NCBI GenBank assembly: GCA_019639175.1
Contig: JAHBSK010000007.1
Span: 124,001-188,000 of the forward strand
Length of the DNA: 64,000 bases
From: Acidobacteriota bacterium
GTDB lineage: Bacteria; Acidobacteriota; Blastocatellia; Pyrinomonadales; Pyrinomonadaceae
Direction of reading: 5' to 3'
The notes below the pieces were generated by a model. The model was not told the DNA's origin and ran no database searches. It saw only the letters and a program-made list of their open reading frames with translations. A program made the translations under genes and the position numbers. This document shows positions 6,411 through 29,639 of the stretch, one piece after another. Numbering within the stretch: the stretch's first letter is position 1; the number at the start of each line of letters is the position of its first letter.

Positions 6411-6415
6411 AATAT

Positions 6416-6528
6416 GGAACGCCAGCATCCCTGCTGGCGTGTCTTGGAACGCCAGCATCCCTGCTGGCGGGTCATGGAACGCCAGCATCCCTGCTGGCGG
6501 GTCATGGAACGCCAGCATCCCTGCTGGC
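6416..6528 (+). repeat. Tandem array of four REP-like palindromes with a 30-bp period
   Basis: Four nearly identical copies at 6416-6438, 6446-6468, 6476-6498 and 6506-6528. Each is GGAAC followed by a GCCAGCA/TGCTGGC hairpin with a short loop. The units are separated by 7-bp spacers that differ at only two or three bases, so the period is exactly 30 bp, a multiple of three. The array lies directly upstream of ettA and is open in frame with it. There are no unique spacers, so it is not a CRISPR array. Confidence 0.9.
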
Positions 6529-6544
6529 GGGTCTTTAGTCACTC

Positions 6545-6567
6545 GCCGTCAGGGATGACGGCGTTCC
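6545..6567 (-). repeat. REP-like palindrome at the 3' end of the RAYT gene
   Basis: Inverted relative to the four tandem copies. The minus strand reads GGAAC then a GCCGTCA/TGACGGC hairpin. It overlaps the last codons of the transposase gene, encoding its terminal residues, and together with 7178-7199 it brackets that gene. Confidence 0.85.
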
Positions 6568-7145
6568 ATGGCGCTCGAAAATTCCCATTCCTCAGGCAGG
6601 CCGCAGAGTCCGGCCTTTACAGGATTGTTCTCAATGTAACGAACAACCCGCCTATAGTGTTCATCATCACGGATGTAACGGTCAAACGCTTCGCGCATCC
6701 AGAAAGCTCCCTTTCTTCCCAACAATTTGTTTGCCTCGGACGCCGTGTAGGATTTTATCGAATGCATTATCTTTTCATACATATGCCCTTCGAGCGGACG
6801 CAGCAACAGGTGAGCGTGGTTAGGCATTATCACCCATGCGTCCAACCGGTAACGCTCAAGATGGTATTTAAGCAACGCATCCCTGACCATTGTCGCAACA
6901 TCCAGGCGTTTTAGAAAACAGGCGCCGTAGCCTTTGTCGAGATAGCGTTCCGCAAGGATAAATGTCTCGCGTGAAATGTTTTCAGGCTTTCTCAACTCCA
7001 ATTCCTGTTTTATTCGCCGAAGAACATTTTGCGGCAGCGAGTCAAAAAGGCGGAATGTTATAAATTGTGTCCGAAACGGCCCGGCATCGAAATGAGGCAA
7101 ATAGCCTCGTGTGTACCAACCTCTTGGCCCGTTTTTGTCCTCCAT
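6549..7145 (-). CDS. REP-associated tyrosine transposase (RAYT, Y1_Tnp / HUH family)
   Basis: About 198 residues of the Y1 transposase (IS200/IS605-like) superfamily. It has the HUH motif in WVIMPNHAHLLL and the downstream catalytic tyrosine region IMHSIKSYTASEAN. The FWMREAFDRYIRDDEHY and YIENNPVKAGL motifs are characteristic of REP-associated single-copy transposases. Such proteins nick single-stranded DNA at palindromic REP elements. Palindromes of one family lie at both ends of the gene (6545-6567 and 7178-7199), and more copies are scattered through the window. I start at the ATG at 7145, after AGGA-containing sequence; a start at 7175 would run into repeat DNA. The last codons are made from the flanking repeat. 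Confidence 0.9.
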   Translation of the reverse strand: MEDKNGPRGWYTRGYLPHFDAGPFRTQFITFRLFDSLPQNVLRRIKQELELRKPENISRETFILAERYLDKGYGACFLKRLDVATMVRDALLKYHLERYRLDAWVIMPNHAHLLLRPLEGHMYEKIMHSIKSYTASEANKLLGRKGAFWMREAFDRYIRDDEHYRRVVRYIENNPVKAGLCGLPEEWEFSSAMERRHP

Positions 7146-7177
7146 GATCCTGTTTATCCTGTTTAATAATAACATCC

Positions 7178-7237: not shown

Positions 7238-8347
7238 CTATTTTATCACCACGCTCCGCACGGTTGCTTTCTCTATACGGTCGCGTTTTATTTCAAAGCC
7301 GATGCCTGGGCCGTCGGGGGCGGTTATTGTGCCTTCGGGTGAGACCTCGACGGCAGGCTCGATGACGTCCTCGTGCCAATATCTTTTGGAAGCTGAGACG
7401 TCGCCGGGCATTGTGTAGCCTTCAAGGGTTGAGATGGCGATGTTGTGGGCGCGGCCTATGCCGGATTCGAGCATGCCGCCGCACCAGACCGGAATGCCGT
7501 TCTCGCGGCAGATCTTTTCGACGAGTTTCGACTGTGTATGTCCGCCGACGCGGCCGTTTTTCAGATTTATTATTTTGCCTGACTTTAGTTCGATGGCTTT
7601 GCGGGCATCTTCTGGTGATTTGATCGGCTCGTCCAGACAGATCGGCGTTTTTATCTGTGCCTGGAGCTTTGCGTGGTCGATGATGTCGTCATACGGCAAA
7701 GGCTGTTCCAACATCATCAGTTCAAATTCGTCGAGGCTCTTGAGCAGATCGATGTCGTCGAGCGTGTATGCCGAATTAGCGTCGCCCATCAGCAGAATGT
7801 CGCCGAACTCCGCTCGGACAGCTTTGATGACATCATAGTCCCAAGACGGCGAGATCTTTATCTTGATGCGTTTGTAACCGGCCTCCAGCTCAACGCGTAT
7901 TTTCTCCAGAAGCTGCGGAACATTGTCCTGAATGCCTATCGAGACGCCGCATTCTATAACCTGATTGACGCCGCCGAGATGCCGCCACAAAGGAACGCCG
8001 AGCTTTTTCGCTTCAAGGTCCCAGCACGCCGTTTCAATCCCGGATTTCGCCATCCGATGGCCACGCGCCCATTTCATCAGGCTCCAAACACCGGTGGCAT
8101 TTTCCACTTCTTTACCGACGACCATCGGTGCAAGTATCTTTTCGGCAGTTACCCAAGCGGAATCCGTCCACTCGTCCGAATAGCCCGGCCCTTCGCCGCA
8201 GGTCACTTCGCCCCAGCCTTCGGCTCCTTCCGTGTCCTCAACGCGAACCAAAATTATTCGGCGTTCATACGTCCGGCCAAAACTTGTCTCAAAAAAATGA
8301 ACCAGCGGAAGCCGGATCTCTGTCATCTCTATTGATCTTATCTGCAT
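7238..8347 (-). CDS. menC: o-Succinylbenzoate synthase (MenC; enolase superfamily, NSAR/OSBS group)
   Basis: 369 residues with the enolase-superfamily layout: an N-terminal capping domain followed by a TIM barrel. Visible active-site residues are the KxK motif (IKIKIS, Lys162 and Lys164), metal ligands Asp189 (MGDANSAY), Glu214 (MLEQPLP) and Asp239 (ICLDEPI), and Lys263 (INLKNGRVGG). This pattern fits o-succinylbenzoate synthase of menaquinone synthesis; members of this group can also racemise N-succinylamino acids, so a dual role cannot be excluded. No other men genes lie nearby. The protein is cytoplasmic. Confidence 0.85.
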   Translation of the reverse strand: MQIRSIEMTEIRLPLVHFFETSFGRTYERRIILVRVEDTEGAEGWGEVTCGEGPGYSDEWTDSAWVTAEKILAPMVVGKEVENATGVWSLMKWARGHRMAKSGIETACWDLEAKKLGVPLWRHLGGVNQVIECGVSIGIQDNVPQLLEKIRVELEAGYKRIKIKISPSWDYDVIKAVRAEFGDILLMGDANSAYTLDDIDLLKSLDEFELMMLEQPLPYDDIIDHAKLQAQIKTPICLDEPIKSPEDARKAIELKSGKIINLKNGRVGGHTQSKLVEKICRENGIPVWCGGMLESGIGRAHNIAISTLEGYTMPGDVSASKRYWHEDVIEPAVEVSPEGTITAPDGPGIGFEIKRDRIEKATVRSVVIK

Positions 8348-8365
8348 GGCATTAACAAAAACTTA

Positions 8366-8394
8366 AGATTAGTCCTTGTTTGGGGCAAAAGCAA
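8366..8394 (-). promoter_or_regulatory. Probable menC promoter
   Basis: Minus-strand TTGCTT (8389-8394) and TAATCT (8366-8371) are separated by 17 bases. The predicted start is about 8359, leaving an 11-12 base leader before the menC ATG at 8347. Confidence 0.5.
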
Positions 8395-8892
8395 TTCCCG
8401 GAGTTTGCCGCGTCCGCACAGGGTTGTTTTTGCAAAAATGTGGTATTTTCTTTGATGGTCAGGTTCCCTGAACGATGAACAAAAATCTTTTTGTCAGAAC
8501 GACGCACTCGCCGCCGGCATAGGTCTGCCGGTCGGCAGGTGATGTTTCCTGCCTTCCGACTCTGAGACCTTTTTCGTGTCTGCATCCATGTCCTTAAAAA
8601 CCCGGACAGCGAGGCCATGGAAAATTTTTTGCAACCGGACACGCGTTCGGACGTTCTTCAAACAGAAAGGATAATGGGGACTTGCCGAATTGACAGCCCC
8701 GAACTTAAAGATCGCAGCAAAGCAATAAGATGTCCGCCCTTATCCTTAAAGAACGCATATCATTTGAGAGGCCGGATCACGCCGTTCATAACAGCAGCTT
8801 CACAAGGGTTCGCGGCCGATCACCTTAAACATAGAGATATTGAAATTCAAAGATATTCGATCACCATATTTAATTTTGATCAGGAGATAAAA
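8395..8892. other. Gene-free stretch between menC and the peptidase cluster
   Basis: About 500 bases with no convincing coding region: frames on both strands are low in coding signals and unlike any family I know. It contains a small hairpin (GCCGGCA ... TGCCGGT near 8513-8533) and an AT-rich tail (8830-8880) just before the subtilisin gene, where that gene's promoter probably lies. No confident -35/-10 pair was found. The Shine-Dalgarno AGGAG (8882-8886) sits 6 bases before the ATG at 8893. Confidence 0.5.
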
Positions 8893-10950
8893 ATGAGGAA
8901 AACACCCTATACCAACTCACCCCGAACGATCGGGCCGCGCCACATGGCCATGTCGTATTTCCTTTTGGCCGCCATCCTCTTTCTCGGATTGCCGGTTCCG
9001 TCAAATTCGCAAAACTCAGCGGACAACCCGCTTGCGGCGACAGGATCACCGGTAGTGATAGCCAGTGCCGAAGACCCGATGGTGTCCAAGATGTCCATCG
9101 GATCGTTTTCAGAACTCAGATCGCTGTCAACGGATGAACAGGCATCGACCGGTGTGGCAATGAACCGCAACGGCGACCCCGTCCTGTTCACCCTGCTTCA
9201 TCTGGAATTTGAGAGTCCGGCCGCTCGGACCGCTATTTTCACCAATCAGAAAACTTCCAGAATAGCCGGAGCGACCGTCGTCACGACAAGCGGGCGTTTC
9301 GCTGATGTTTTCGTTGCGAGCGATGACGCCTGGGATGCGGTCGAACGGTCTCGCGGCCTTGTCCGCGTCGAATACGGAGCCACGGTCAACGCTCCGCCTC
9401 CGCCGCCCGCGGCACAGGCTCCGCTTACATCACAGGCGATACCGGAGCCGATAGTTCGCGGCGGACGTTCAGGCCTGACGGGAAAGAACACCATCGTGGC
9501 CGTTCTGGACACAGGCGTGGATTTTCGCCACCCCGATTTCATCACCTATGACTCACAGGGCAGGCCGACCTCGCGGCTCCGTTATCTGTGGGACACGTCC
9601 ATGGCATACATTCCCGGACGCGGCAGCGTCTCTCCGGTCAAATTTCCAAACGGCGGATCGATCGGCACGCTCTTCACGCGTGACCAGCTTACGGCGGAAC
9701 TGCGTTCCTCGACCGTTACCATTCCCGGAACCGATCTGCAGGGACACGGAACGGCATGTGCGGGCATCGCGGTCGGCAACGGCAACGGCGATCAGGGAAC
9801 CGACGGCCTGAAACGGCCTGAGGTCGTCGGCGTCGCGCCGGAAGCCGACATCGTCGGCATCACAATGGGCTTTGCCGGAGGGTTTGAGAACTCGTACCTT
9901 ATGAACCCGATGGTCGAATGGCTTGACAGGGTTGCGGGAACGACGCCTCTCATCATTTCAGGCAGCTTCGGCGGCCACTATTCGGGCCATGACGGCCAGA
10001 CGGTCTTTGAACGTCATCTGAACGACCGTTTTCCGCTGACCAAAGCGGGCAGGGCGTTGGTGCTGGCGGCGGGCAACGAAGGTTCTGACGGCATTCATGC
10101 TCACATTAGATTCTCAAAGGAACCGCAGCTTGTCTCGTGGAACGCAAATCGCGCGACAAAGGTACGCATCTATATGGGTTCGGCTGACAAGGGCCTTGTG
10201 CTGCTTGCCTCAAAGGCGACGCCCCTTGGCGACAACCTGAAGGTCGAGCTTAATCCTCTTACCAATCAATATTCGGCAACGCTGACCGTGGCCCAGGGCA
10301 TCGGCGGTGTTTGGTTCACCAACACGGACGACAAACCGAGCGAGGCCCATCTCTATGTCAACAACCGTGACCTGGCGACCTTCTCGCCCGAAAACGTCAG
10401 CTACAGCCATCTGGTCGGAGCGCCGGGCAATACTGAGAACGCTATAACGGTCGGCAGCTATAGCTGGAACGATAACTTTCACCAACGCGGCAGCCTGACC
10501 ACGCTCGGAGCCGTTTGCCGCAGCACGGCAGGCTCGGCGGTTCCGTTCGAGATCGGGTTCCTCTCGTGCTATTCCAGTCCCGGGCCGAACCGTGCGGTCG
10601 CAGGCAAGGCTTCAGTTGTAAAGCCTGAGATCGTTGCACCCGGCGAATGGTATTCCGCCAGCCTGGCAAAGGTCCCGAAAATGGGTCCGGTTCAGGGCTG
10701 GAGATATGATTCCACCGGAAACTATGCGGCGATGAACGGCACAAGCTCGGCAACGCCATACACGTCCGGCGTCATCGCACTGATGTTCCAGAAGAACCCG
10801 AAGCTGACGCTTGGCGATGTACGGACGCTGCTGATGCGTCATACGACAAAATCGGGCCTCCAGCCGCTCGCTTCCGCCCTGCCGAACAACAACTGGGGTT
10901 ACGGCAAACTCGACCTGGCGGCAGTTGACCGGATACTCGGCGCGTTGTAA
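8893..10950 (+). CDS. Secreted subtilisin-family serine peptidase (S8)
   Basis: 685 residues. A basic N-terminus and hydrophobic segment (about 17-38) form a signal peptide. The catalytic triad is Asp206 (VAVLDTGVD), His285 (QGHGTACAGIAVG) and Ser618 (GTSSATPYTSG), in the S8 order. A roughly 330-residue stretch lies between His and Ser, longer than in plain subtilisins, with a beta-rich insert (about 400-500). Residues 60-165 look like a propeptide or binding region, followed by a Pro-rich linker. The start is fixed by AGGAG at 8882-8886. It is followed on the same strand by a caspase-like gene and a TPR-CHAT gene, all exported, so it may be the first of a three-peptidase unit (inference). 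Confidence 0.9.
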   Translation: MRKTPYTNSPRTIGPRHMAMSYFLLAAILFLGLPVPSNSQNSADNPLAATGSPVVIASAEDPMVSKMSIGSFSELRSLSTDEQASTGVAMNRNGDPVLFTLLHLEFESPAARTAIFTNQKTSRIAGATVVTTSGRFADVFVASDDAWDAVERSRGLVRVEYGATVNAPPPPPAAQAPLTSQAIPEPIVRGGRSGLTGKNTIVAVLDTGVDFRHPDFITYDSQGRPTSRLRYLWDTSMAYIPGRGSVSPVKFPNGGSIGTLFTRDQLTAELRSSTVTIPGTDLQGHGTACAGIAVGNGNGDQGTDGLKRPEVVGVAPEADIVGITMGFAGGFENSYLMNPMVEWLDRVAGTTPLIISGSFGGHYSGHDGQTVFERHLNDRFPLTKAGRALVLAAGNEGSDGIHAHIRFSKEPQLVSWNANRATKVRIYMGSADKGLVLLASKATPLGDNLKVELNPLTNQYSATLTVAQGIGGVWFTNTDDKPSEAHLYVNNRDLATFSPENVSYSHLVGAPGNTENAITVGSYSWNDNFHQRGSLTTLGAVCRSTAGSAVPFEIGFLSCYSSPGPNRAVAGKASVVKPEIVAPGEWYSASLAKVPKMGPVQGWRYDSTGNYAAMNGTSSATPYTSGVIALMFQKNPKLTLGDVRTLLMRHTTKSGLQPLASALPNNNWGYGKLDLAAVDRILGAL

Positions 10951-10968
10951 CACTCTCCCTCCAAAGAA

Positions 10969-11010
10969 AACGGCCGGGCATTGGGAATGCGGCCCCGACG
11001 CCCGGCCGTT
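10969..11010 (+). terminator. Strong hairpin between subtilisin and caspase genes
   Basis: An 11-bp perfect inverted repeat (AACGGCCGGGC at 10969-10979, GCCCGGCCGTT at 11000-11010) with a 20-base loop, 18 bp after the subtilisin stop. There is no T-run after it, so it may act as an attenuator or mRNA-processing or stabilising structure rather than a full terminator. It would separate expression of the first gene from the next two. Confidence 0.5.
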
Positions 11011-11037
11011 CCTAAACGAATATTTACCGGAAAGATA

Positions 11038-13260
11038 ATGAGACACCTGCGATACAACCTGATCCTGTCTGTGGCCTTGACGGTCGTCGTAATGACGGCC
11101 ATCTGGCTCAGCGGCGGCAATGTCGTCCGCTCGCAGGAAGCTGTGCGTGAAGAGCAAAAGCGGCCCGCGTTCGCTCTGCTCGTCGGCATCTCAAACTACA
11201 AGTCAAAGGACATCACACGCATTGACGGCTGTGAGAACAACGTCCCTGCCCTCGCGGAAACGCTGACACGCGATTACGGCTTTCCGGCGGCAAACGTAAA
11301 AACGCTCGTCAACGAAGCCGCCACCCGCGACGCCATAATCGCTGAATTTCAGAAGCATCTTTTGGCGAATGCAAAGGCCGCCGCCGAGAACAAGGCCGAG
11401 GCCGCCATCGTTTATTACTTTTGCGGACACGGTTCGCAGTATCCCGATCAGGACGGCGACGAGAATGACGGCATGGATGAGACCTTCGTCCCGTATGACG
11501 CCAGAACAGGCGATGTCTTTGACATTCTCGATGACGAATTTGACGACCTGAAAACCGATCTCAGGCCATTCACGTCGAACGCAGTTTTTATTCTGGAAAG
11601 CTGCCATTCAGGTACCGGAACGCGCGGCGACAGCAGCGATACGCTCGTTTCGCAGGAAGCTGATGCCGACAAGAGAAAGCGGACGCCGTACAAACGCCGC
11701 CATCCGCCGTCGGGGCCGTCTGACGCGATGACCTATACAGAGATCGCCGCCTCGCTGAGCTATAACACGGCAAAATCGGAAACTGCCGCTTTCTGCAAAT
11801 GCGACAAGCCGATGAGCCTGATGACACGGGCGTTGGTGCAGGCCCTGAAACGCTCGACGCCGAACACGACATACCGCTCGCTGATGCGCGAGGTTTCGAC
11901 GGAGGTCGCCGTGCATTCGCGGCAGGAACCGCAGCTTGAGGGCAGCCGCGACACCGTTCTTTTCGGCGGCGCGGCAAAGCGGACAACGCCTTTTATCGAA
12001 ATAGAAAGCGTCATGCCCGACGGCCGTATCGTGATACGCGCCGGCATCATTCACGGACTGAAAACAGGCAGCCAGGTTTCGGTCTATTCGTCCGATTCGG
12101 CAACAAACACCGGACGCGACGGATGGCTCGTCAACGGCGTCGTCGAACGCGTCGGCAACACGACATCTGTCGTGCGTCTGCCTTCGGCAAAAGAGCAGCC
12201 GAACACTGAAAAAGTTAAGGTCACGTCGCGTGTCATACTTGCGTCGCCCGTTTTTGGCGGCGGAGCGCTTGTCGCCGACCTTGGGCCGATGAGCGGAGAC
12301 GCGGCATCGCTGCCGAGGTCGGTCGCCGCCTCGCTGGAAAAGGACGGGCTTGTCGAAAACGGAATGGTAAAGCTGGACTCGGCAGCGTCCGCAGACGGCG
12401 GCGTATTGACGCTTCGCCGTGGAAAGGTAAAGGACATTGCGGCCGAACGACGTTTTCTCGCTCCGCTGAAACCGCGCAGCATCTGCGACGGCGACGATCT
12501 GAAAACATTGACTGAAAATGAACGTTATCCGGCGCGGGAAAAGGATGTCTTTTACCTGACGGACGGAGCCGACAGCCGCCCGATCTACGGCATGACGTTT
12601 GACCCGGAAGACACCTCAGCCGCAGAAAAGATCGCGTCGCTGATACGCGACCACGCCTATTCACGAAATCTTCGCGGACTGGACAACAAGGCATCTTCCC
12701 TGCCCGAACAGATAAAGGTGACGCTCAATTCGATACCGTCGGATGCGATAATCGAAGGCTGCCGCGAAGGCAAGATCACCTACCGGCCCGACCGTGACAA
12801 GTTTCGCGGCTTTCAGGAGATCACGGACGGAAAAACGCCGATAGGCTCATTCTTTCAACTGAACATAAAGAATATTTCCGGTGAGATACGCCGAAAGGAG
12901 AACGAATTTGCGTCGGGCGAGGCATTTCACATCGCCGTTCTCGCCCTTACGAACAAAGGCGAGATAAGGAACGCCTACGGTTCCGGCGGTGCAAATGACG
13001 CCCTGCAGGACGGAAAAGATGTTAACATCACTTTGCGGATGACCGAGCCGGTCGGCATCGAACGCTTTGTCATTGTGGTGTCAAAAGATCACATCGACCT
13101 GAGCTTTTACGAAACGCGCGGAACGCGAAATTCATCGTCGCTTCTGGAAAGGCTGCTGACACGTTCGGGCGAAGCGACGCGCGACGCGCGTTCGGTCGTT
13201 GACGCACCTGACGGCTGGGGCGTTATCCACATGGAACTCAATATCACCGACGAAAAATAG
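11038..13260 (+). CDS. Exported caspase-like (C14, metacaspase/orthocaspase) protein
   Basis: 740 residues with an N-terminal signal or membrane segment (about 6-30) and then a caspase p20-type domain. Conserved features are FALLVGISNY, the catalytic His131 in YYFCGHGSQ and catalytic Cys189 in VFILESCHSG. The region after the peptidase domain (about 320-740) holds beta-rich segments and a C-terminal part resembling DUF4384 (FHIAVLALTNKGEI). Bacterial caspase homologues cut after Arg/Lys and often act in proteolytic relays. The ATG at 11038, preceded by GGAAAG, is chosen because the signal sequence begins there. The TPR-CHAT gene follows after 21 bp. Substrates cannot be predicted. Confidence 0.85.
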   Translation: MRHLRYNLILSVALTVVVMTAIWLSGGNVVRSQEAVREEQKRPAFALLVGISNYKSKDITRIDGCENNVPALAETLTRDYGFPAANVKTLVNEAATRDAIIAEFQKHLLANAKAAAENKAEAAIVYYFCGHGSQYPDQDGDENDGMDETFVPYDARTGDVFDILDDEFDDLKTDLRPFTSNAVFILESCHSGTGTRGDSSDTLVSQEADADKRKRTPYKRRHPPSGPSDAMTYTEIAASLSYNTAKSETAAFCKCDKPMSLMTRALVQALKRSTPNTTYRSLMREVSTEVAVHSRQEPQLEGSRDTVLFGGAAKRTTPFIEIESVMPDGRIVIRAGIIHGLKTGSQVSVYSSDSATNTGRDGWLVNGVVERVGNTTSVVRLPSAKEQPNTEKVKVTSRVILASPVFGGGALVADLGPMSGDAASLPRSVAASLEKDGLVENGMVKLDSAASADGGVLTLRRGKVKDIAAERRFLAPLKPRSICDGDDLKTLTENERYPAREKDVFYLTDGADSRPIYGMTFDPEDTSAAEKIASLIRDHAYSRNLRGLDNKASSLPEQIKVTLNSIPSDAIIEGCREGKITYRPDRDKFRGFQEITDGKTPIGSFFQLNIKNISGEIRRKENEFASGEAFHIAVLALTNKGEIRNAYGSGGANDALQDGKDVNITLRMTEPVGIERFVIVVSKDHIDLSFYETRGTRNSSSLLERLLTRSGEATRDARSVVDAPDGWGVIHMELNITDEK

Positions 13261-13281
13261 AACGGGCCGCCGTTTGAGCCA

Positions 13282-16200
13282 ATGAGATACACCGAGAGAA
13301 AATTGCCGCTGTTTGTGATGATCGTCCTTTTGGCGTTCGCGTCTTTCGCCGCCGCGCAGACGCCTGACGCCGACCTGCTGGCGGAGGCGGAAAAGGAATT
13401 TGCGGCCGCGAGCGAACTGCTTGATAAAGGCACGCCCGAAGATCTCACCTCGGCAAAACCTCTGTTCCTTTCGGCGGCGGGAAAATTTGCAAAGGCGGGC
13501 AACGCGGAGAAAAGGGCCAACTCCATTCTTTACGCCGCGCGCTGTGCTGACGATCTCGAGGAATATGACGAGGCCCTGCCGCTTTATACCGAGGCCATAA
13601 AACTCTACGCCGACCTGAAAAACAACGAAGGCGTCGCGGTCGCGAACAACAATATAGGCAACATCTATCTGGCCCGCAACAACCTTGAGGCCGCCCGGGA
13701 ATATTACGAAAAAGCGTTGGAAATAGCCGCCCGCGGCGAGGCAGACTCAGTCTTGATGAACGTTTATACATCGCTCATCATGATCTACGAGGCGACCGGC
13801 GACCGTCCGAAGGCGCTGGCACTTTCGCGTGACGCCATTGAGGCTTCGCGCAGGATCGGCGACATCGTCGGCGAGGCCCGTTCCATCAACACATTGGGCC
13901 AGATATTGTCCGACCTTGGCGACAGGGCCTCGGCCCGCACGCTTTTTGAAAAGGCGCTCGAGCTGGCCGTGGAAAACAAGATCGACGACCTTGAGGTGCT
14001 GGTGCTGAACAACCTCGGCGCCTTGCATTACCATCTGGGCGAACAGCCAAAGGCCCGCGAATTTTACCGTCAGGCTCTGGCCAGGACCGATGAAAAAGAG
14101 GAACCGGAAATGACGGTACTCATATTGACCAATCTCGGCCAAAGCCATTATGCGGCCGGCGAGGTCTCACAAGCTCTTGAGATATACGCACGCGGCAACA
14201 CGATAGCGGAAAAGATAATTTCTTCGGTGATAGTCGTCACGCTGGAAAATAACATCGGCCTGGCCTATTACTGGCTGAAAGACAATAAACAGGCGCTGAC
14301 ATATTTCCGCAAGGCACTGGAGCGGACGCGCTCCATCGGCGTCCGTTCAAGGGAAGCGACCATCATGCTGAACGTAGCGGCGGTTCATCAGTCCGAAGGC
14401 CGCTACGAAGAGTCGGTAAAGACGCTGGCAGAGGTTGTAGAACTCGCTGAAAAGACCCTGGACATCCCGATAATTGTCACCGCTCTCAACAACCTCGGTA
14501 TGATAGCCCTGCTCGAAAACGATGTCGAAACGGCAATGACCGTTTTGACCCGCGCTCTGCCGGTTAGCCGCGACATCGGCGACAGATTTATCGAGAGCAA
14601 GATCCTGAACAACTTGGGCCGTGCATATCTGATGAACGGCGATAACGCAAAAGCCGTCGAGTGCCTTGAGCGATCTCTGGTAACTGCAAAGGCAATAGGC
14701 GACCGCCACGGCGAGGCGGGGGCATTGGCGAACCTGATGTATGTATGGGACGACATGAAAAATCCGCTTTATGCCGTTTTTTACGGTAAAAGCTCGGTCA
14801 ACGCATACCAGCAGCTTCGCGAAGGGATAAGTTCGCTCAGCCCGGAATTGCAGGCGTCATATCTCGCATCAGTTTCAGAAACATACAGAAAACTGGCCGA
14901 CCTGCTCATCCGCGCGGGCCGCATTGCCGAGGCCGAACAGGTACTCGTACTGCTGAAACAGGAAGAGCTTCTCGATTTTGTCCGCCGCGACGACAAGATG
15001 ACCGGCCATCTGAAAGGCGCCGTTTCGCTTTCGCCAAAGGAACAGGAAGCCCTGGCCAGATATTCGCAGTTGGCCGAAAACCTGACCGCTCTCGGCAATG
15101 AGTTCAGCAAGTTGGACATGGAACGCAAAACGTTTGCCGTCGGTGAATTTCCCAAACAGGCACGCTATGACGAACTCAAGCGTCAACTGGCCGACGCAAA
15201 TCTTGTTTTCGAAAAATTTCTTGAGGATCTGAAGATACGATTCGGACAAAAGGACGTTCGCGTCGCTCAGGTCGAATCCGGCCTTCGCCGCACGCTTGAA
15301 CGCCTGAAGGCCGACCGCACCGCCGCCGTTTCGACCATTGTCGGAAAGAACGAACTGAACATAATCGTCACCACCAGCCGCACGCAGAAGGCCCATCGGA
15401 TAGAGATCGCCGAAGAAAAGATCAACACGCTGGTCGCGACGCTTCGCCGGGCGCTGACATCGCCGCAGTACGATCCGCGGCCTGCATCACAGGAGCTTTA
15501 TGATGTGCTGATAAAGCCCATCGAAGGCGACCTTGCCGGCATCAAGGCAGACACCATTGTCTGGAGCATGGACGCAACGCTGCGGTATCTGCCGCCGGCG
15601 GTGCTGTGGGACAAACAGAAAGGCTATCTGGCAGAGCGTTTCTCAAACGTTATCGTAAATCTGGCAAGCCGCGACACAATAGCTTTGCCGGTTTCGGACG
15701 GAAAGACGTGGGAGGTTTTGGGCGTTGGCGTATCCAAAGCGGTTGACGGCTTTAAGCCGCTGACGGCGGTTCCGGTTGAGCTGGAATGCATCGTAAACGA
15801 TGCCGACGCGGCTCACTCCGCAAACGGAAAACCGCAATGTGACAAAGGCGTATTGAACGGGCGCCGACTCCTGGACGAGGAGTTTACGCTGGCAAATTTT
15901 GAGGACAGCATCGGGCGTTATCCGGTGATACACATCGCCAGCCACTTTCAGCTTGAACCCGGCGACGACCGCAATTCTTTTCTTTTGCTCGGCGGCGGCG
16001 ACCAGCGGCGGTTTACCGTGGAACACCTGCGAAATCAGTCGCTTGCGGATGTCGAACTCATCGTCCTGTCCGCCTGTAACACGGCAACACCGGCGGGCGG
16101 CAACGCCAACGGCATCGAAATAGAAGGATTTGGTTCCGTCGCCCAACAGGAAGGCGCAAAAGCTGTGATGGCGACGCTCTGGGCCGTTTTCGACACTTCG

Positions 16201-16455
16201 ACAAAGGATCTGATGGTGGAATTTTACAGGCTCTACGGCAAAGGCGGCGTCACCAAGGCAGAAGCCCTGAGGCAGGCACAGATAAAGCTGATGAACGGAC
16301 AATATTCCGCCGGCGAAGCAGGAAAGGTACGTTCGGACATCATCAACTTTGAAGGCGAGGGCGACGACCTGCCGAAATTCACGCCCGACCCCAAAGCCCC
16401 GTTCGCCCATCCGTATTACTGGTCGCCGTTCATCCTCATCGGCAACTGGCGATAG
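13282..16455 (+). CDS. Exported TPR-repeat protein with C-terminal CHAT peptidase domain
   Basis: 1057 residues. A signal peptide (residues 1-25, ending FAAAQ) is followed by an alpha-helical TPR array (about 45-520) with repeated NNLG...YLxxN/GD patterns, a helical linker (about 530-680) and a CHAT domain. The caspase-fold catalytic pair is visible as His888 (VIHIASHF) and Cys932 (IVLSACNTA). CHAT proteases are usually regulated by their helical repeats. With the caspase-like gene 21 bp upstream and the subtilisin before it, this makes three peptidase folds in one row, all with export signals. Whether they form one pathway is inference. Confidence 0.9.
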   Translation: MRYTERKLPLFVMIVLLAFASFAAAQTPDADLLAEAEKEFAAASELLDKGTPEDLTSAKPLFLSAAGKFAKAGNAEKRANSILYAARCADDLEEYDEALPLYTEAIKLYADLKNNEGVAVANNNIGNIYLARNNLEAAREYYEKALEIAARGEADSVLMNVYTSLIMIYEATGDRPKALALSRDAIEASRRIGDIVGEARSINTLGQILSDLGDRASARTLFEKALELAVENKIDDLEVLVLNNLGALHYHLGEQPKAREFYRQALARTDEKEEPEMTVLILTNLGQSHYAAGEVSQALEIYARGNTIAEKIISSVIVVTLENNIGLAYYWLKDNKQALTYFRKALERTRSIGVRSREATIMLNVAAVHQSEGRYEESVKTLAEVVELAEKTLDIPIIVTALNNLGMIALLENDVETAMTVLTRALPVSRDIGDRFIESKILNNLGRAYLMNGDNAKAVECLERSLVTAKAIGDRHGEAGALANLMYVWDDMKNPLYAVFYGKSSVNAYQQLREGISSLSPELQASYLASVSETYRKLADLLIRAGRIAEAEQVLVLLKQEELLDFVRRDDKMTGHLKGAVSLSPKEQEALARYSQLAENLTALGNEFSKLDMERKTFAVGEFPKQARYDELKRQLADANLVFEKFLEDLKIRFGQKDVRVAQVESGLRRTLERLKADRTAAVSTIVGKNELNIIVTTSRTQKAHRIEIAEEKINTLVATLRRALTSPQYDPRPASQELYDVLIKPIEGDLAGIKADTIVWSMDATLRYLPPAVLWDKQKGYLAERFSNVIVNLASRDTIALPVSDGKTWEVLGVGVSKAVDGFKPLTAVPVELECIVNDADAAHSANGKPQCDKGVLNGRRLLDEEFTLANFEDSIGRYPVIHIASHFQLEPGDDRNSFLLLGGGDQRRFTVEHLRNQSLADVELIVLSACNTATPAGGNANGIEIEGFGSVAQQEGAKAVMATLWAVFDTSTKDLMVEFYRLYGKGGVTKAEALRQAQIKLMNGQYSAGEAGKVRSDIINFEGEGDDLPKFTPDPKAPFAHPYYWSPFILIGNWR

Positions 16456-16725
16456 TGTTTAGAGCAGTTTTCGGTCGCATGCATGACAGTGCAAAACTGA
16501 TAGCTGACGGCTGAACGCTGTTTTTAACATTTAACAAAACATTCCTTACCAACTGCCCGTCACCATAAATACGGCCCTGAAACGGTGATGTGTCTAACGT
16601 ATGACGGGCAACTATGTGTCCTATGTTTCTATGTTGTCAATACTGCTTTTAGAACACATAGTATTTCAAATAGTTTTATCTGCCTTCTGTTTTATGTTTT
16701 GCCATGCACGCAACCGAGAACCGAT

Positions 16726-18894
16726 CTATTCAATCACCTCGAACTGAACGAACTGTGTCGCCGTCGCATATTTGTCCTTTGCGACCTCGTCCTTGACCAC
16801 GATCTGCAGAACGTATTCACCAGGTTCCATCTGCTCCGCCAAACTTAACGCTCCGGTAGATTTTAGCCGTCTCAGGTCAGACTGGCCTGTCAGCTCTAAC
16901 AGTTTGGGTTCTCCTTCAAAAACAAGTTTGCCGTTTCTGAAAATTCTGACCCTCGAGTTCACTTTAGGACGCTTAGAAGCGTCCAGAGCTGCCTGATAAA
17001 CTTCATAACCGTACCTAAGGACCATACCGCGCCTGAACTTTCTCAGCGAAGTGTCCCGCATCGGGTCCGATAGTTCTTTGGCCTCACCGCCCGGAATTTC
17101 CGCGGCTTCCCACTCCGCCAAAGTGTTGCCTTGAAGCACAATGCCGGAGACCGAGGGCCTGCCTTTTTTCTTTGGGTTCGGTATCTCCATGAACTGGCTG
17201 GCAGAGCCGACCTTGCCTGACCTTTCATCAACAATGGCGACCCGCATCTGGTAAGCGCCCGGCTTTTTAACCGGAAACGAGACGTTATAGACCAGGCCTT
17301 CGCTGTTGATCTTCTTGAGGAGATGCTCAGGAACTGAGAGTGTATAGCTGCGTCCGTTCTCCTCAACGACCTTGCCGTTCGCATCCATGTTTGCCACGAC
17401 AACGCCAAGACGGACAACCCATTTATCCTCAGCCTCGCGCATAAATTCGAGATCATTTCCGTTTATATGCAGCAGCGTCCTGATATAATTCCCTTTCGCA
17501 TCGTCATTGGCATAAAGTGCGTTCATACTAAGCTCGATGTCATTGACGGCGAATGGCGACATCAAAGCCTTGCCGATGCGTTGCTGCGGCGTCATATCCT
17601 CCGCCGGCGGTTTTCTTATATTCTCATCTGCCACATTGAAAAAACCGCTCCGATACCTGACAACGGCATCGGGGCGGTTCACTTTTATCACAATGCGGTT
17701 ATAACGGAGCTTTTTCGGGTCAAAGGTCTCGTCCTCCGGCTCATATGCCAGCAGATAATAGCTGTGATCCTCCATCACGCGGCGAACTCCGCCCATGATG
17801 TCGTTATTGTTGACCACGGCAAATCCGCCGGTTTCCCTGGCCAATTCACGAAGAGCGGCCTGCGTCTCAAACAGATCGCTGCTGCGCTCCGAAAGCATCC
17901 GGTTCGTTCTTTCGATGCTCGGGTTGACGATATCATCCGCTGCGGTAAATCCGGTATAGACCAGCCCGCGCGGGTCTATTGTGTAAAAGACCACTGAAGA
18001 TCGGTTGGCTACGTCGATCAGCTTTCGCATAAAAGCCGCTACGGTCCCGCCGCCGGACAATTCGGTGTTGTTCCGTGCGATTGCCCTGAAACCATCCGAA
18101 AAAAGTATCACTGATTTTCGTCCCGGCAGCTCGCCCATGCCTTCGACGATAAAGCGAAGCGCTCCGAGCGACCCGGCAGCAAAACTGCTGGAACGAAAAT
18201 CATCAAAACCCTGATTGAATTCCCTTTCGCGTTCCAGATCTTCTTCCGAAACAGATGTGTCGCCCATCGCCTGCAGTTGTTCCAGCATTGTCGGCCCGAT
18301 CGGTGCAAAAGCACTGATACCGCCGCTGCCCCTCGGATACCACCTTACTTTTTCAATTGCCGCATTCAATATCCGGCGGTCGCCGGTGAACTGCTGCAGG
18401 GCGCCGACACCGGCTGACGTTCGGACTATGGCGACCATGTCGCCGTCCTGCATCTGCTCGTCAACAAATCGCTTCAATGCCCGTCGTGTTTGATAGGAAC
18501 TCTCAAATGAAAGCGTGAGATCATCAACGACAAGAGCTATCGTTCGCCTGACCGCTTCGGGACGAATTGGCAGGACAGGCGGCGGGGCGAGCGGATCGGC
18601 CGGTTTACGTCCCTGTTCACGGCTCTCGCCTGCCCGCGTTGCGGTGATATATGACAGGCCCGAAACACGCTGTTCGCGGCCGTTCTCATAGATCGTGAAA
18701 TCCTCCGGCTTCAGCCCCGTTATCGGCTTGCCTTTTTTATCGGTAACGGTAACGTCCAGTTGGATCAGCGTCGTGGTGATCTTGACGACATCTTCGTCCT
18801 CGACAGGTGTCGGCGATGGGGCAGGAAGCGTCTGTCCGAACCCGAACACACAGCAACCGGCAATGACGGTGAAGAGCAATGTAAGGCGTTTCAT
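16726..18894 (-). CDS. Secreted VWFA-related protein (acidobacterial VWFA domain)
   Basis: 722 residues: signal peptide (1-20), a short Pro linker, a beta-rich N-terminal domain with the typical IQLDVTVTDKKGKPITGL and DFTIYENG motifs, then a VWA domain. In the VWA domain the usual DxSxS metal motif is replaced by VVDDLTLSFESS, so the canonical MIDAS is not intact. The C-terminal half (about 430-722) is beta-rich. The layout matches the VWFA-related domain family expanded in Acidobacteriota. It probably functions in the periplasm or outside the cell in protein binding. It is encoded opposite to the peptidase cluster; the 270 bp between them (16456-16725) hold only weak inverted repeats. Confidence 0.85.
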   Translation of the reverse strand: MKRLTLLFTVIAGCCVFGFGQTLPAPSPTPVEDEDVVKITTTLIQLDVTVTDKKGKPITGLKPEDFTIYENGREQRVSGLSYITATRAGESREQGRKPADPLAPPPVLPIRPEAVRRTIALVVDDLTLSFESSYQTRRALKRFVDEQMQDGDMVAIVRTSAGVGALQQFTGDRRILNAAIEKVRWYPRGSGGISAFAPIGPTMLEQLQAMGDTSVSEEDLEREREFNQGFDDFRSSSFAAGSLGALRFIVEGMGELPGRKSVILFSDGFRAIARNNTELSGGGTVAAFMRKLIDVANRSSVVFYTIDPRGLVYTGFTAADDIVNPSIERTNRMLSERSSDLFETQAALRELARETGGFAVVNNNDIMGGVRRVMEDHSYYLLAYEPEDETFDPKKLRYNRIVIKVNRPDAVVRYRSGFFNVADENIRKPPAEDMTPQQRIGKALMSPFAVNDIELSMNALYANDDAKGNYIRTLLHINGNDLEFMREAEDKWVVRLGVVVANMDANGKVVEENGRSYTLSVPEHLLKKINSEGLVYNVSFPVKKPGAYQMRVAIVDERSGKVGSASQFMEIPNPKKKGRPSVSGIVLQGNTLAEWEAAEIPGGEAKELSDPMRDTSLRKFRRGMVLRYGYEVYQAALDASKRPKVNSRVRIFRNGKLVFEGEPKLLELTGQSDLRRLKSTGALSLAEQMEPGEYVLQIVVKDEVAKDKYATATQFVQFEVIE

Positions 18895-21471: not shown

Positions 21472-23730
21472 TCACAGATTCCGCAGAATAAAATCCGTTA
21501 TCATCGTGTACATGTGGTATTGCTGGTTCGGATCGACGACGCCGTGGCGTTGGGTCGGGTAGAGCATCAGGTCAAATTGTTTGCCGTGTTTTTGCAATTC
21601 GTTGACAAGCTGGATCGTGTTTTGCTGATGGACGTTGTCGTCCATGATACCGTGTATGAGGAGTATGCGTCCGTGCAGGTTCTTGGCGGCCTTGACGACC
21701 GATGTGCTTTCGTAACCGGCCGGATTGCTCTTTGGCGTCTGCATAAAACGTTCCGTGTAGATCGAATCGTAGAGATGCCAATCCGTGACCGAACCGCCGG
21801 CGATACCGGCCTTGAAAATATTGCTGTGGGTCATGGCGTAACCGGTCATAAATCCGCCGTAGCTCCAGCCCCAAATGCCGATGCGTTCGCCGTCAACATA
21901 CGGCAGCGACTTTAGATAATTGATGCCGTCCTCGATGTCGCGAAGCTCCAGCCTGCCCATCTGCCGATAGACGGGCCATGTCGATTCCTCGCCTTTGCCG
22001 CTGGCGGTGCGGTTGTCGCACATCCAGATGATGTAGCCTTTTTGCGCCAACATCTGATGCCACATATAGCGATTGCCGCCCCACGAATTTCTCACCTGCG
22101 GAGCGTGCGGTCCGGCGTAGGTGTATTGCAGAACGGGATATTTTTTTGACGGATCAAAATCAGGCGGCTTTATCATCATCGCTTCCATCTCGAAACCGTC
22201 ACGCGTTCTTACCTTCATAAACTCAGGCTCTCCGAGCTTGAATTCATTTAGAACATCGACCTGATTGTTATTGAGGATGCGTTCAAGTTCGCCGTCGGCG
22301 CGAAAGAGCCGCTGCTGCGGAGGCGTGTTCACATCGCTCCAGTTATGAACGTAATGCGTGAACGTGCTGTTGAACGACGCCGAATGATTTCCGCCGCCGA
22401 CCGAGATACGCTGTATTTCACCTCCGTTTATGGAAACACGGTAAATATTTTCAGCGATATGATTGTCCTTTGTCGCCGAAAAATAGACCCAGCCGTTTGT
22501 CTCGTCAACACCGTAAAATGAACGCACTTCCCATTTGCCGTCGGTCAACTGGCGATAAAGATTTCCTTTGGCGTCGTAATGATAAAGATGCTTCCAGCCA
22601 TTGCGCGCCGATTGCCAGATGCTGCTGCCATCCGACAAGAATTTCGGATCGCCGTAAACCTCGACCCATGCTGCGGTCGTTTCGGTAAAAAGCTTTTTGA
22701 CCTTGCCGTCAACCGCCGCAGAATTTACATCCAAAAATGTCTGTTCGCGGTTCAGCGCCTGAAAGATCACGCTTTCGCTGTCCGGCGTCCACGCCACGCG
22801 GCCTATCAGAATATCGTCGGGTTTATAGGCTTTCAGATCGGCAAATTTTACATTGTCGCCTATGCGTTGAATGCCCGCCGGCAGCCTGTCGCCGACACCG
22901 GGAACGTTTCTCACGTTAGGCACACGCGAGCTTTTCGTCACGTCGGCAATGCCGAGCTGCACGAGCGGATTCGGGTCGCCCGCCTTCGGGTAACGCGTCT
23001 TTTCCGTTCCGGGATCATTCGTCACTTCGTTCGAGAGAATGAATTCCGGCACCGGCGAATCATCCAGCCGCAAAAACGCGATGTGGCGCGAATCCGGCGA
23101 CCACCAGTAACCGCGATTGTTGCCGCGTCCGTAAAGTTCCTCTTCATAGACCCAGACGAGATAGCCGTTGTGAATGCGTTCGGTGCCGTCGCGCGTCAGG
23201 CGTTTTTCCTCTGCTTTTTCGACATCAACCACGTAAAGATCGTTGCCGCGAACAAAGCTGACCCAGCGGCCGTCAGGGCTGAAATCCTGCTCGACCTCAG
23301 GCTCTTTTGTGTCGGTCAGACGCTTCATCCTGCCCGAAGCGATGTCGTAATGCCAAAGGTCATTTGCATGATTGAGCAGTATCGCCGTTTCGCCTTTGTT
23401 GAAATGCAGCGTGATCGAAACCGAAAGCCTTTCCGCCAAATACCGCTCCAGCCCTGCGGTCGAAACAAGCGCCGAAGCGAACCTTGCGCTGTCAAAATAT
23501 GGCTCGGCTTCGCCTGTGATGGCATTTACCCGCACAAGTCGTCCGCCCTGCATCTGCTTGAACGAACGCCCGTCCGGCGCCCATGTAAGACGCGTCGGGC
23601 CGCCGCCGAAAGGAACGCGGCGGGACATCTCAGGACTAAAAATGTCGTCAAGCGTCAGCAGGCGCTCCTGCGCGGGAACGTTGATGAAAAGAAACAGGAA
23701 CGCAGCGGCAAGCAGTGTAAGTTTTCTCAT
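21472..23730 (-). CDS. Secreted S9 prolyl oligopeptidase family peptidase, dipeptidyl-peptidase IV type
   Basis: 752 residues: signal peptide (1-20, ending NVPAQ), DPP-IV N-terminal beta-propeller (about 40-490) and C-terminal alpha/beta-hydrolase domain. The nucleophile is Ser623 in GIWGWSYGGF, with the Asp in HGIMDDNVH and the His in TQRHGV near the C-terminus. The propeller contains LVWVYEEELYGRG; the Glu pair there binds the substrate N-terminus in DPP-IV enzymes, so release of X-Pro/X-Ala dipeptides is likely. It probably acts in the periplasm in peptide use. The ATG at 23730 starts the signal sequence. It may be read from a weak promoter in 23731-23825. Confidence 0.9.
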   Translation of the reverse strand: MRKLTLLAAAFLFLFINVPAQERLLTLDDIFSPEMSRRVPFGGGPTRLTWAPDGRSFKQMQGGRLVRVNAITGEAEPYFDSARFASALVSTAGLERYLAERLSVSITLHFNKGETAILLNHANDLWHYDIASGRMKRLTDTKEPEVEQDFSPDGRWVSFVRGNDLYVVDVEKAEEKRLTRDGTERIHNGYLVWVYEEELYGRGNNRGYWWSPDSRHIAFLRLDDSPVPEFILSNEVTNDPGTEKTRYPKAGDPNPLVQLGIADVTKSSRVPNVRNVPGVGDRLPAGIQRIGDNVKFADLKAYKPDDILIGRVAWTPDSESVIFQALNREQTFLDVNSAAVDGKVKKLFTETTAAWVEVYGDPKFLSDGSSIWQSARNGWKHLYHYDAKGNLYRQLTDGKWEVRSFYGVDETNGWVYFSATKDNHIAENIYRVSINGGEIQRISVGGGNHSASFNSTFTHYVHNWSDVNTPPQQRLFRADGELERILNNNQVDVLNEFKLGEPEFMKVRTRDGFEMEAMMIKPPDFDPSKKYPVLQYTYAGPHAPQVRNSWGGNRYMWHQMLAQKGYIIWMCDNRTASGKGEESTWPVYRQMGRLELRDIEDGINYLKSLPYVDGERIGIWGWSYGGFMTGYAMTHSNIFKAGIAGGSVTDWHLYDSIYTERFMQTPKSNPAGYESTSVVKAAKNLHGRILLIHGIMDDNVHQQNTIQLVNELQKHGKQFDLMLYPTQRHGVVDPNQQYHMYTMITDFILRNL

Positions 23731-23825
23731 ATCGTTTTCGTCAGTCCAAGAGGTGATCTTTGACTTGAATGATACGCGAAAATGTTTTGCCGGAGCAAAC
23801 CCATAGAGCCGCTGACCAACAGCCG

Positions 23826-25061
23826 TCAAGCCTCGTAACCCGCCTCGCGAAGCGCCTGTTCGTCAGATATGCCGATCTGTTTTCGCAGGAGGATGTTCTC
23901 AAGTTCCTCGCGTTCGGAAAGGCGGGCCGGATCTTCCCAACGCGTTGTCGGAAATACGACGCCGTGGCCTTCCACGCGGAGCGCGAACGCCATCGCTTCG
24001 GCCCACGTCTGCCCAAAAACGGCCTGTCTTTCGCGCACCTTTGCGATAAAACGCGTTTCCGATTTTCGCAACGCCTCGCCGCTTGGGAAACTTCGCGAAT
24101 TTGGCAAAAGATAATACATCGGCGTTCCGGTAACGGATGCAATATCGACGCGAAAGCTGTCCTTTACTTTCAGGAACTGATCGAGGTCGGCCGTGTTAAA
24201 ATCACCAAACCGTGCCTCCGGATTTTGCGCCAGCCAGAGGTGATCGACACCCGCTTTGAAAGGAGCGACGGGCTGGCCGTCATTGTCATATTCGATCTCA
24301 ATGCCCGCCGCCCAACGCTGGCGATACGCCGAAAATTCCATCGCCACGAGCATGTCCAGAACGGCCTTGTTCATTCCGTCCTGCACCGGTATCGCCGCTT
24401 CCAGTTCCGAACGGCCAAACGAGCCGATGTCCGCATTATTTGCAAAATGAAACACCGGCACAACGCCGTAAGGGTTTGGGATGGCGTCGCGATAGCGGAC
24501 AAATTGTCCGGCGTCGGCCAAAATGCCTTCGGATGGTTTTGCCGTAATAAAGCGCTCGATGCGGTCGGGGTAAAAGATGTTCAGCCGCGTGTGGCGTCCG
24601 AGCGTCCGCCAGTATTTTGCCGCCCACAGCACCTTGCCCGCGTTCTCTTCGTCATAGGCAACGGTGCAGTTTGCGGCACGGTTCGGATAAACCGCCGCGC
24701 GGCCCGCGTCGTCCGGCCAGACGATGACGTATGCATCGCCCGTGACCAGAGCTTCGCGATGTACCTCGCCCGCACGTATCGGCAAACGGTTTCGCCGCCA
24801 AATGCGGTCTGTTTCGACAGCCAACGCGCCGTTCTCCGGCAAAAATCCCGTGACGCGCAGCTTGTCGCGAACGGCATCACAGACCGCCGGGCAAAGATTG
24901 AGCGCAAATTCGCGAAAGAGCGAGCCAAACGTGTTGGCGAACTTTTCAGTCGCGAACGCCAGGTCATGATCGCCGCGATAGTATCGCTCGTTCCTTGCAT
25001 AAACGGGCGCCGCCGCTCGGAAATTATGTATCGCTTCTTCAATATGTTCTTTCATAAGCAT
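23826..25061 (-). CDS. Phage portal protein (SPP1 gp6-like)
   Basis: 411 residues matching the SPP1 Gp6-like/actinophage portal type: an N-terminal RNERYYRGDHDLAFATEKF region, a central ALVTGDAYVIVWPD segment, and PNPYGVVPVFHFAN. Helices follow around FRVDIASVTGTPMYYLLP and the SFPSGEALRKSETRF motif typical of portal stems. It would form the dodecameric DNA entry vertex of the head. A start two codons in (second Met) is equally possible. It is the last gene of the minus-strand head block. Confidence 0.8.
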   Translation of the reverse strand: MLMKEHIEEAIHNFRAAAPVYARNERYYRGDHDLAFATEKFANTFGSLFREFALNLCPAVCDAVRDKLRVTGFLPENGALAVETDRIWRRNRLPIRAGEVHREALVTGDAYVIVWPDDAGRAAVYPNRAANCTVAYDEENAGKVLWAAKYWRTLGRHTRLNIFYPDRIERFITAKPSEGILADAGQFVRYRDAIPNPYGVVPVFHFANNADIGSFGRSELEAAIPVQDGMNKAVLDMLVAMEFSAYRQRWAAGIEIEYDNDGQPVAPFKAGVDHLWLAQNPEARFGDFNTADLDQFLKVKDSFRVDIASVTGTPMYYLLPNSRSFPSGEALRKSETRFIAKVRERQAVFGQTWAEAMAFALRVEGHGVVFPTTRWEDPARLSEREELENILLRKQIGISDEQALREAGYEA

Positions 25062-25078
25062 TCAAAGTTTTTCGGCGT

Positions 25079-25402
25079 TCATATCCTGACCGTCAGCCGG
25101 CATTTCGCCGCGTAGATCGCCGCCATTTTGCGGCAATTATCAAAGACCTGAGAGGTGACGATGCCCGATTCGGGCGGTTCGATCTCCGTCATCGCCGAGG
25201 CACGGGCCGCCTTGATAAGCCAGCCGTCTGCCGCCGCTTTGTTAAGGTCAAACGTCGGCACCCAACTGTCATTTGCCGGTTCATTGCCGTTCTCATCGGC
25301 GATGCTGGCTGCGTTCAGCAGATCCTCGACCTCTATTTCGGTGAGCGCGGGTTCCGTCTCCCACGCCGTCAACAGTTTCAGTTTTTCAAGTGCGTTTTCC
25401 AT
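25079..25402 (-). CDS. Small phage-island protein, possibly head completion or connector
   Basis: 107 residues. The N-terminal half is acidic and helical (LTEIEVEDLLNAASIAD), followed by a Trp-containing segment and a C-terminal CRKMAAIYAAKCRLTVRI. No family recognised. Its position between portal and capsid genes, with a 17-bp gap to the portal gene, suggests a structural or connector role. That is inference. Confidence 0.5.
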   Translation of the reverse strand: MENALEKLKLLTAWETEPALTEIEVEDLLNAASIADENGNEPANDSWVPTFDLNKAAADGWLIKAARASAMTEIEPPESGIVTSQVFDNCRKMAAIYAAKCRLTVRI

Positions 25403-25532
25403 AACTATTTGTCAGTTGTCATTTGTCCGTTGTCATTTGTCCTTTGATCTTGGGTCTTTGGTCTTGGGTTTTGGGTCTGGAAGCAAGATCTTGGAAATTT
25501 AATAGATCCCCGAACCTGCTCCAGACCGCGAA

Positions 25533-25658
25533 CCAAGGACTAATGACAAATGACCAAGGACTAATGACAAATGACCAAGGACTAATGACAAATGACCAAG
25601 AACAAATGACCAATGACCAAGAACAAATGACCAATGACCAAGGACTAAGGACAAATGA
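25533..25658. repeat. Tandem 21-bp repeat (three 7-bp modules) inside the phage island
   Basis: Six 21-bp units built from CCAATGA-like heptamers (CCAAGGA, CTAATGA, CAAATGA). The first three units are identical; the last three have diverged. Related GTCATTTGTCC heptamers in reverse orientation lie upstream at 25411-25441, so the whole 25403-25674 gap between capsid and connector genes is repeat DNA. The translated minus strand (VICSWSLV... repeats) is a by-product. Confidence 0.85.
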
Positions 25659-25674
25659 CTTCCTTCAGACTCTG

Positions 25675-26526: not shown

Positions 26527-26615
26527 GTTTTTTTTCCTTAATTGTTGTTCCGCCGGATCGGCGGGAAATGATGTGTGTCAAAACCGATGCTCAGTACGGC
26601 GTGCCGACCGTGTGG

Positions 26616-27044: not shown

Positions 27045-27135
27045 ACACGCCGCAGATTAGCCGACGCGGACGGCAAACGGAATGTCGTTTTTCCAGCTAT
27101 GCGCAACATCGTGCGGGTTGCGCGATATGCACGGT

Positions 27136-27384: not shown

Positions 27385-27617
27385 ATATCTGTTTTATTTC
27401 CCCGATCCTATAATTTTGCCATGAAAACCGTGAACATTGTGCGATCCGGCTCATTTCGCGCAAATGCTTATTCAGCTTTCATCAGTATTTGCATAGTCTG
27501 TTCGTGGCCGGACAAAAAAGCGTAAGCGGCGGTGAAAATCTTGATAACGGACCGCCCGGCAACATCCGGCCATTTCAAAATATCAAACATTTGTTTTATT
27601 TGCAAAACTATTTTTCG

Positions 27618-28766: not shown

Positions 28767-28770
28767 CTAT

Positions 28771-29616: not shown

Positions 29617-29639
29617 AGCTGCGATCTCACTATCATTTA

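Follow-up and report, generated by a model that had tools for sequence, protein, structure and literature searches.

The three consecutive peptidase genes examined in this work, which encode an S8 subtilase, a C14 caspase and a TPR-CHAT protease, on balance probably constitute an accessory module for limited proteolysis outside the cytoplasm, in which the S8 and TPR-CHAT proteins form the core and the metacaspase has been added in the lineage of the window (viz. the entire stretch of 64,000 nucleotides that was analysed, from a 3.8 Mb genome of the phylum Acidobacteriota). The recognition of these genes as a module rests on the domains of their products, their conserved active sites and signal-like N-termini, the purifying selection acting upon them, the recurrence of the S8 and TPR-CHAT genes together, the dispensability of the caspase clade and the insertion of the genes as a cassette. 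The features of this cassette are listed in Table 1, where residues are numbered from the starts at 8893 (S8), 11038 (caspase) and 13282 (TPR-CHAT).

Table 1. Positions in the window of the peptidase cassette, its genes and their main parts
Feature	Position	Strand	Basis or remarks
Accessory cassette, ~8 kb	8348..16725		Interval from menC (7238-8347, -) to VWA gene (16726-18894, -)
S8 subtilase, Csp type, 685 aa	8893..10950	+	PF00082; signal-peptide-like N-terminus, prodomain, D206/H285/N395/S618
S8 prodomain, residues ~97-165, beta-alpha-beta-beta-alpha-beta like subtilisin propeptides	9181..9387	+	Secondary structure of the model, pLDDT
S8 beta-sandwich insert, residues ~402-540, between N395 and S618	10096..10512	+	Strands of the model; position of the Csp jelly-roll
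Hairpin between S8 and caspase, 42 bases	10969..11010	+	-32.2 kcal/mol, z -3.6
C14 metacaspase-type protease, predicted exported, 740 aa, H131/C189	11038..13260	+	PF00656, residues 45-302
TPR-CHAT protease, predicted exported, 1057 aa; TPR ~80-490, CHAT 734-1055, H888/C932	13282..16455	+	PF13424 and others, PF12770

The S8 stop is separated from the caspase start by 87 bp and the caspase stop from the CHAT start by 21 bp, and the encoded proteins match PF00082 (E-value 5.6e-37), PF00656 (4.3e-24) and PF12770 (7.2e-54), which confirms the domains, positions, shared strand and 21-bp spacing reported in a first-pass annotation of this DNA. The catalytic residues named there (Asp206/His285/Ser618, His131/Cys189 and His888/Cys932) are also present, and they are kept in the relatives of each protein. 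In comparisons with genome G068, which is the only close relative carrying the trio and served as the reference, the dN/dS values are 0.058 for the S8, 0.064 for the caspase and 0.100 for the TPR-CHAT gene, and all three genes are therefore under purifying selection. However, it is not certain that they form one operon, because a strong and conserved hairpin separates the S8 from the caspase gene. The hairpin is 97% identical in G068 over 59 bases, as against a dS of ~0.8-1.1 in the coding sequences, and among the 41 genomes of the genus full copies of it are found only in the window and G068. This element may serve in attenuation, processing or transcript stability, and it could separate expression of the S8 gene from that of the other two.

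The start codon of the S8 gene is backed by GGAGATAAAAATG and by the G068 orthologue, and the residues D206, H285 and S618, as well as N395, are invariant across the 8 members of its subfamily. In the predicted structure of this protein (pTM 0.82), the alignment with Csp and pro-subtilisin chains begins at residue 96-99, and the prodomain is followed by a linker (residues ~166-193) that is disordered in the model and, as the linker alignment indicates, carries the motif IVRGG, the Arg of which is kept in 5 of the 8 members. Two features of Csp-type subtilases, viz. an intact D/H/S triad in the S8 fold and a jelly-roll insert inside the catalytic domain, are both found here, the latter as a beta-rich region of the model. 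CspA, CspB and CspC are the best matches by structure and by sequence (E 3e-46), and 409 residues of the model align with CspB (4i0w) at 2.2 A (VIA-align Z 41.3). The scores with the named Csp equivalog models are, however, far under their cut-offs (85.6 bits versus 1250 for CspBA and 51.6 versus 675 for CspC), and due to this the protein is described here as Csp-related in architecture and is not filed as a Csp. Similar to the Csp proteases of Clostridia (CspB/CspA/CspC), which function in germination, it contains a prodomain as well as a beta-sandwich inserted after the oxyanion Asn and ahead of the Ser and, judging from its signal-like N-terminus, it would share their extracytoplasmic setting. 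It differs from them in showing only ~20-24% identity, in possessing its own signal-peptide-like N-terminus, and in lacking a spore setting and SleC, with TPR-CHAT and caspase genes as its neighbours instead. CspA and CspC themselves lack full catalytic triads.

The C14 domain of the caspase scores 85.9 bits with PF00656 (cut-off 21.4); its H131/C189 dyad is invariant in 10 full-length relatives, and an acidic residue two positions ahead of the Cys is found in 10/10 members. Metacaspases are the best matches to this protein by both sequence and fold and the only solved relatives detected by sequence, while its C-terminal half is modelled with low confidence. In common with prokaryotic metacaspases/orthocaspases it has a p20-type C14 domain, the HC dyad, an acidic loop of the DxxxDE type and an acidic residue before SCHSG, but it differs from them in its ~440 extra residues and in the constant company of an exported-type TPR-CHAT and S8. 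Metacaspases depend on calcium for their activity, and because the caspase of the window is metacaspase-like, both calcium dependence and specificity for Arg/Lys are expected of it by analogy. Its caspase domain is also related to that of NF047832 (caspase, EACC1-associated type), but the score with this model is 43 bits versus a cut-off of 140 and no EACC1-type partner was seen. For the TPR-CHAT protein, the CHAT domain scores 183.6 bits with PF12770 (cut-off 24), and the column of Cys932 is Cys in 30/30 relatives, whereas that of His888 is His in 29/30, the sole exception being a fragment broken by an IS (L033). The succession of a TPR array and a CHAT protease domain is also seen in the TPR-CHAT protein of type III-E CRISPR systems (Craspase, Csx29). 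However, the protein from the window is of the exported type and no Cas7-11 or CRISPR gene is found near it, the flanks being occupied by menC, EttA, VWA, SLT and DPP IV genes; further, among the best 60 matches listed for it there was no sequence match to a solved TPR-CHAT chain, and only TPR parts were matched.

Export was assessed by a simple rule (a positive n-region, an uncharged hydrophobic stretch and a small-residue site), which is unable to separate cleaved signals from N-terminal anchors. All three proteins satisfy this rule and contain no other TM segment, so that their N-termini are signal-peptide-like by this measure, in agreement with the export signals previously noted, and a cytoplasmic location of the caspase and CHAT N-termini is not indicated. 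The rule is also satisfied by 10/10 full-length caspases of the clade that retain their N-terminus, versus 31% of control ORFs, and by the S8-linked TPR-CHATs whose N-terminus is intact (those of the window, L031, L032, L034 and L053), and it is failed by the caspases in L045, L046 and L141-L143 and by the CHATs of L131-L133, which are linked to a sigma factor. Exported-type caspases and TPR-CHATs are common in the bacterial family of the host. The first-pass statement that caspase and CHAT domains usually act in the cytoplasm was too strong, as an N-terminal TM helix or signal peptide is present in dozens of prokaryotic metacaspases, for which an extracellular role was proposed in 2012 (PMC3501461). 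Other proteolysis domains are included in 23/217 metacaspase operons (PMC3501461). Thus, exported metacaspases are already known, as is the occurrence of CHAT and subtilase genes beside ECF sigma factors (ECF54). For the set of exported S8, TPR-CHAT and metacaspase proteins no paper was found among the open-access papers searched, most subscription papers lying outside that search.

The distribution of these genes was determined by querying 119 genomes, at the level of the order, with each protein of the trio and fetching the loci obtained. The trio is present in 5 genomes from 4 genera, viz. the window genome (G000) and G068 from one genus and G003, G017 and G044 from three further genera, and hence the rarity of co-occurrence that would have spoken against a functional link is not seen. 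The order of the genes varies among these loci and can be S8-caspase-CHAT, caspase - WD40-caspase - S8 - CHAT, CHAT - S8 - small protein - caspase, or an S8 gene divergent from caspase - double caspase - CHAT; in G044 the S8 gene is transcribed divergently from the other genes, with ~6.6 kb between it and the CHAT gene. In L037-L041, caspase and CHAT genes occur without an S8 of the window type. Within the genus the trio is found in 2/41 genomes and it is therefore not essential. In a scan of GTDB r220 (one genome per species) with an S8 profile, at least two further clear relatives were identified, L051 (Chthonomonadales) and L053 (Capsulimonas), both from Armatimonadota, and among 297 Acidobacteriota genomes a score of >800 bits was obtained only for the window and G044. 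Counting the members of the S8 subfamily among the matches listed, 6 of 8 loci are near a TPR-CHAT gene (one of these IS-broken), and in the other 2/8 the S8 gene directly precedes an exported-type TPR gene that runs off the contig end ahead of any CHAT domain. In L053 the S8 gene overlaps the TPR-CHAT gene by 4 bp, and in L051 and L044/L052 (Chloracidobacterium UBA6041) the contig-end TPR gene follows after 8 and 27 bp, respectively. Further, the caspase of the window clade is absent, at the profile level, from three genomes with the S8 subfamily (G085, G487 and G488), which include those of L051 and L053; for PF00656, G487 has no match and G085 and G488 have only weak ones. As the S8 gene is accompanied by a TPR or TPR-CHAT gene in these three genomes, the caspase is an add-on and not an obligatory first step, and its obligatory membership is ruled out. 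Judged from gene neighbourhoods, the putative unit of S8 with TPR-CHAT (or with a contig-end exported-type TPR gene) is better conserved than the trio, across both Acidobacteriota and Armatimonadota. The earlier interpretation of an extracytoplasmic relay is supported only in so far as three active-looking, exported-type peptidases recur together, whereas a three-step chain is not required. In 8 genomes, picked because they hold the S8 subfamily, 9 S8 genes were observed within 6 kb of a CHAT gene versus 1.3 expected, both figures including a second, ECF-linked type of S8-CHAT arrangement; with these counts and the recurrence, a chance neighbourhood is ruled out for genomes so chosen. Counting against a module are the two contig-end TPR partners without CHAT, the layout in G044, the low frequency within the genus and the hairpin, which may uncouple expression.

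The second S8-CHAT arrangement, which is common to Acidobacteriota and Armatimonadota, was observed in genomes G003, G017 and G488 (loci L131:8958-14991, L132:453-6230 and L133:2-4907) and consists of an ECF-type sigma factor, a protein of ~160-220 aa without a family assignment, a CHAT protein without a signal and a short exported-type S8. By its layout it resembles the ECF54 context, in which an ECF sigma factor occurs with CHAT and subtilase genes (PMC8999054), and the adjoining of a CHAT and a subtilase gene is likewise seen in the window. However, the CHAT proteins of L131-L133 have no signal-peptide-like N-terminus and their S8 is of another, shorter type, and no sigma factor is found among the genes flanking the trio. 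In other loci (L037, L038, L039, L042, L045, L046 and L032) two small genes, encoding ~160-210 aa and ~240-340 aa, recur together beside the caspase or CHAT gene; by eye they resemble a sigma/anti-sigma pair, but this identity was not accepted as there was no Pfam sigma match where searched. A stretch of ~50 kb in G044 (L034-L036, C51:66000-126000) encodes many exported-type caspase-domain proteins, several of them WD40-fused and one with two caspase domains and DUF4384.

The gap between menC and the VWA gene ranges from -19 to 196 bp in 11 genomes of the same genus, versus 8379 bp in the window and 8061 bp in G068, and among the genomes compared the interval is occupied only in these two. The trio is on the opposite strand to both flanking genes, one of which is matched by the acidobacterial VWA model TIGR03436. 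The nearest relatives of the CHAT protein (57-58% identity), in G051 and G075, are likewise encoded next to the VWA gene, and hence the CHAT gene may have resided at this site for a long time. A search of the cassette edges for marks of mobile elements revealed no tRNA, integrase or flanking repeats. Further, a phage origin of the trio is not indicated, since in a scan of viral contigs none of 49 C14 proteins had a CHAT or window-type S8 gene in the available flanks.

If these genes function as the module that we favour, then all three proteins would, after export, be located on one side of the envelope. The S8 would be made as an exported zymogen, the prodomain of which would be lost at the linker around IVRGG, either autonomously or upon cleavage by the CHAT protein. 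A substrate or a signal protein would be captured through the TPR array, and cleavage at the active sites of the CHAT and S8 proteins would be confined to few and specific positions. A second input would come from the metacaspase, which is expected to require calcium and to cut after Arg/Lys. We infer the sharing of a compartment, the limited rather than degradative nature of the cutting, the order of events, the trigger and the substrate. Our confidence in this reading overlaps with that in the others considered below, because these are not all mutually exclusive.

It is possible, though in our opinion unlikely, that the three proteases activate each other in order outside the cytoplasm, e.g. 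with the metacaspase or CHAT protein cutting the S8 linker and the S8 then acting on a target. The zymogen layout with its partly conserved linker Arg, the cleavage after Arg/Lys expected of a metacaspase-type enzyme and the joint presence of the trio in 4 genera are all consistent with such a sequence, but the Arg of IVRGG is retained in L044 and L051, from genomes lacking the caspase clade, and it is therefore not explicable as a caspase site. In addition, subtilases usually process their own prodomains, and the order and orientation of the genes differ among loci. A precedent for zymogen activation is provided by CspB, which cleaves pro-SleC at a single site and retains its own prodomain (PMC3567191); this single cut is also in keeping with the favoured module. 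We consider it similarly unlikely that the exported proteases act independently of one another in degradation or nutrition, having gathered in a peptidase-rich neighbourhood without cooperating. Acidobacteriota are rich in exported peptidases, S8 or S8-like sequences occur at about nine further places in the window genome, and an exported-type, DPP IV-like S9 peptidase is encoded nearby (21472-23829). However, this DPP IV gene remains in the empty-site genomes without the trio, CHAT proteins and metacaspases are atypical as nutritional enzymes, and this rare S8 subfamily alone keeps a TPR or TPR-CHAT neighbour across phyla, most other S8 genes in these genomes lacking one.

A function in conflict or cell death, in which the caspase, CHAT and S8 proteins of the envelope would kill the cell, its kin or an invader upon a signal, appears doubtful. 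An accessory cassette at a fixed site would suit this function, bacterial conflict systems often contain caspase, CHAT and peptidase domains (PMC8195603), and metacaspases bearing N-terminal helices have been suggested to act outside cells in death or fratricide (PMC3501461). However, no sensor NTPase, effector-associated domain, pore-former or other defence gene adjoins the trio, and no pore-former, including gasdermin, was recognised among its annotated neighbours. The matches obtained with PADLOC are to generic subtilase, caspase and TPR domain models only, and they do not assign the trio to a defined defence system. Lastly, it is very improbable that the N-terminal segments anchor the proteins to the inner membrane and leave their catalytic parts in the cytoplasm, for although the signal rule cannot tell the two apart and the caspase shows no clean AxA site by eye, the signal region of the TPR-CHAT protein ends in a textbook FASFAAAQ, with similar ends in its relatives, and in each of the three proteins the hydrophobic stretch follows positive residues, so that the positive-inside rule puts the remainder outside.

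With regard to the favoured module, bacterial caspase-like proteases have mostly been studied inside cells, and the S8/TPR-CHAT pair with its optional metacaspase would represent a testable system of limited proteolysis at the surface, for which the clean empty site offers natural comparisons with and without the genes and the resemblance to CspB a concrete mechanism to test. That the Csp-like subtilase, metacaspase and TPR-CHAT protein together make up a calcium-responsive extracytoplasmic cascade, exchanged as a cassette, can be put forward only tentatively and strikes us as rather unlikely; if true, it would be an envelope counterpart of the cytoplasmic caspase cascades of bacteria.

Some other features were observed around the cassette. 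At 6414-7175, beside a Y1 (IS200-like) transposase gene, four 30-bp tandem repeats enter the N-terminal extension of the EttA ORF. In G068 an exported-type protein of 1969 aa, alpha-2-macroglobulin-like by eye, is encoded between the SLT and DPP IV genes (L031:13266-19175) and is absent from the window. Genes for a phage portal, capsid and terminase at 23826-30974 mark a prophage or its remnant, a tandem array with a 21-bp unit in about six copies is located at 25532-25659, and between 32 and 40 kb the G+C content falls to 43-48%.
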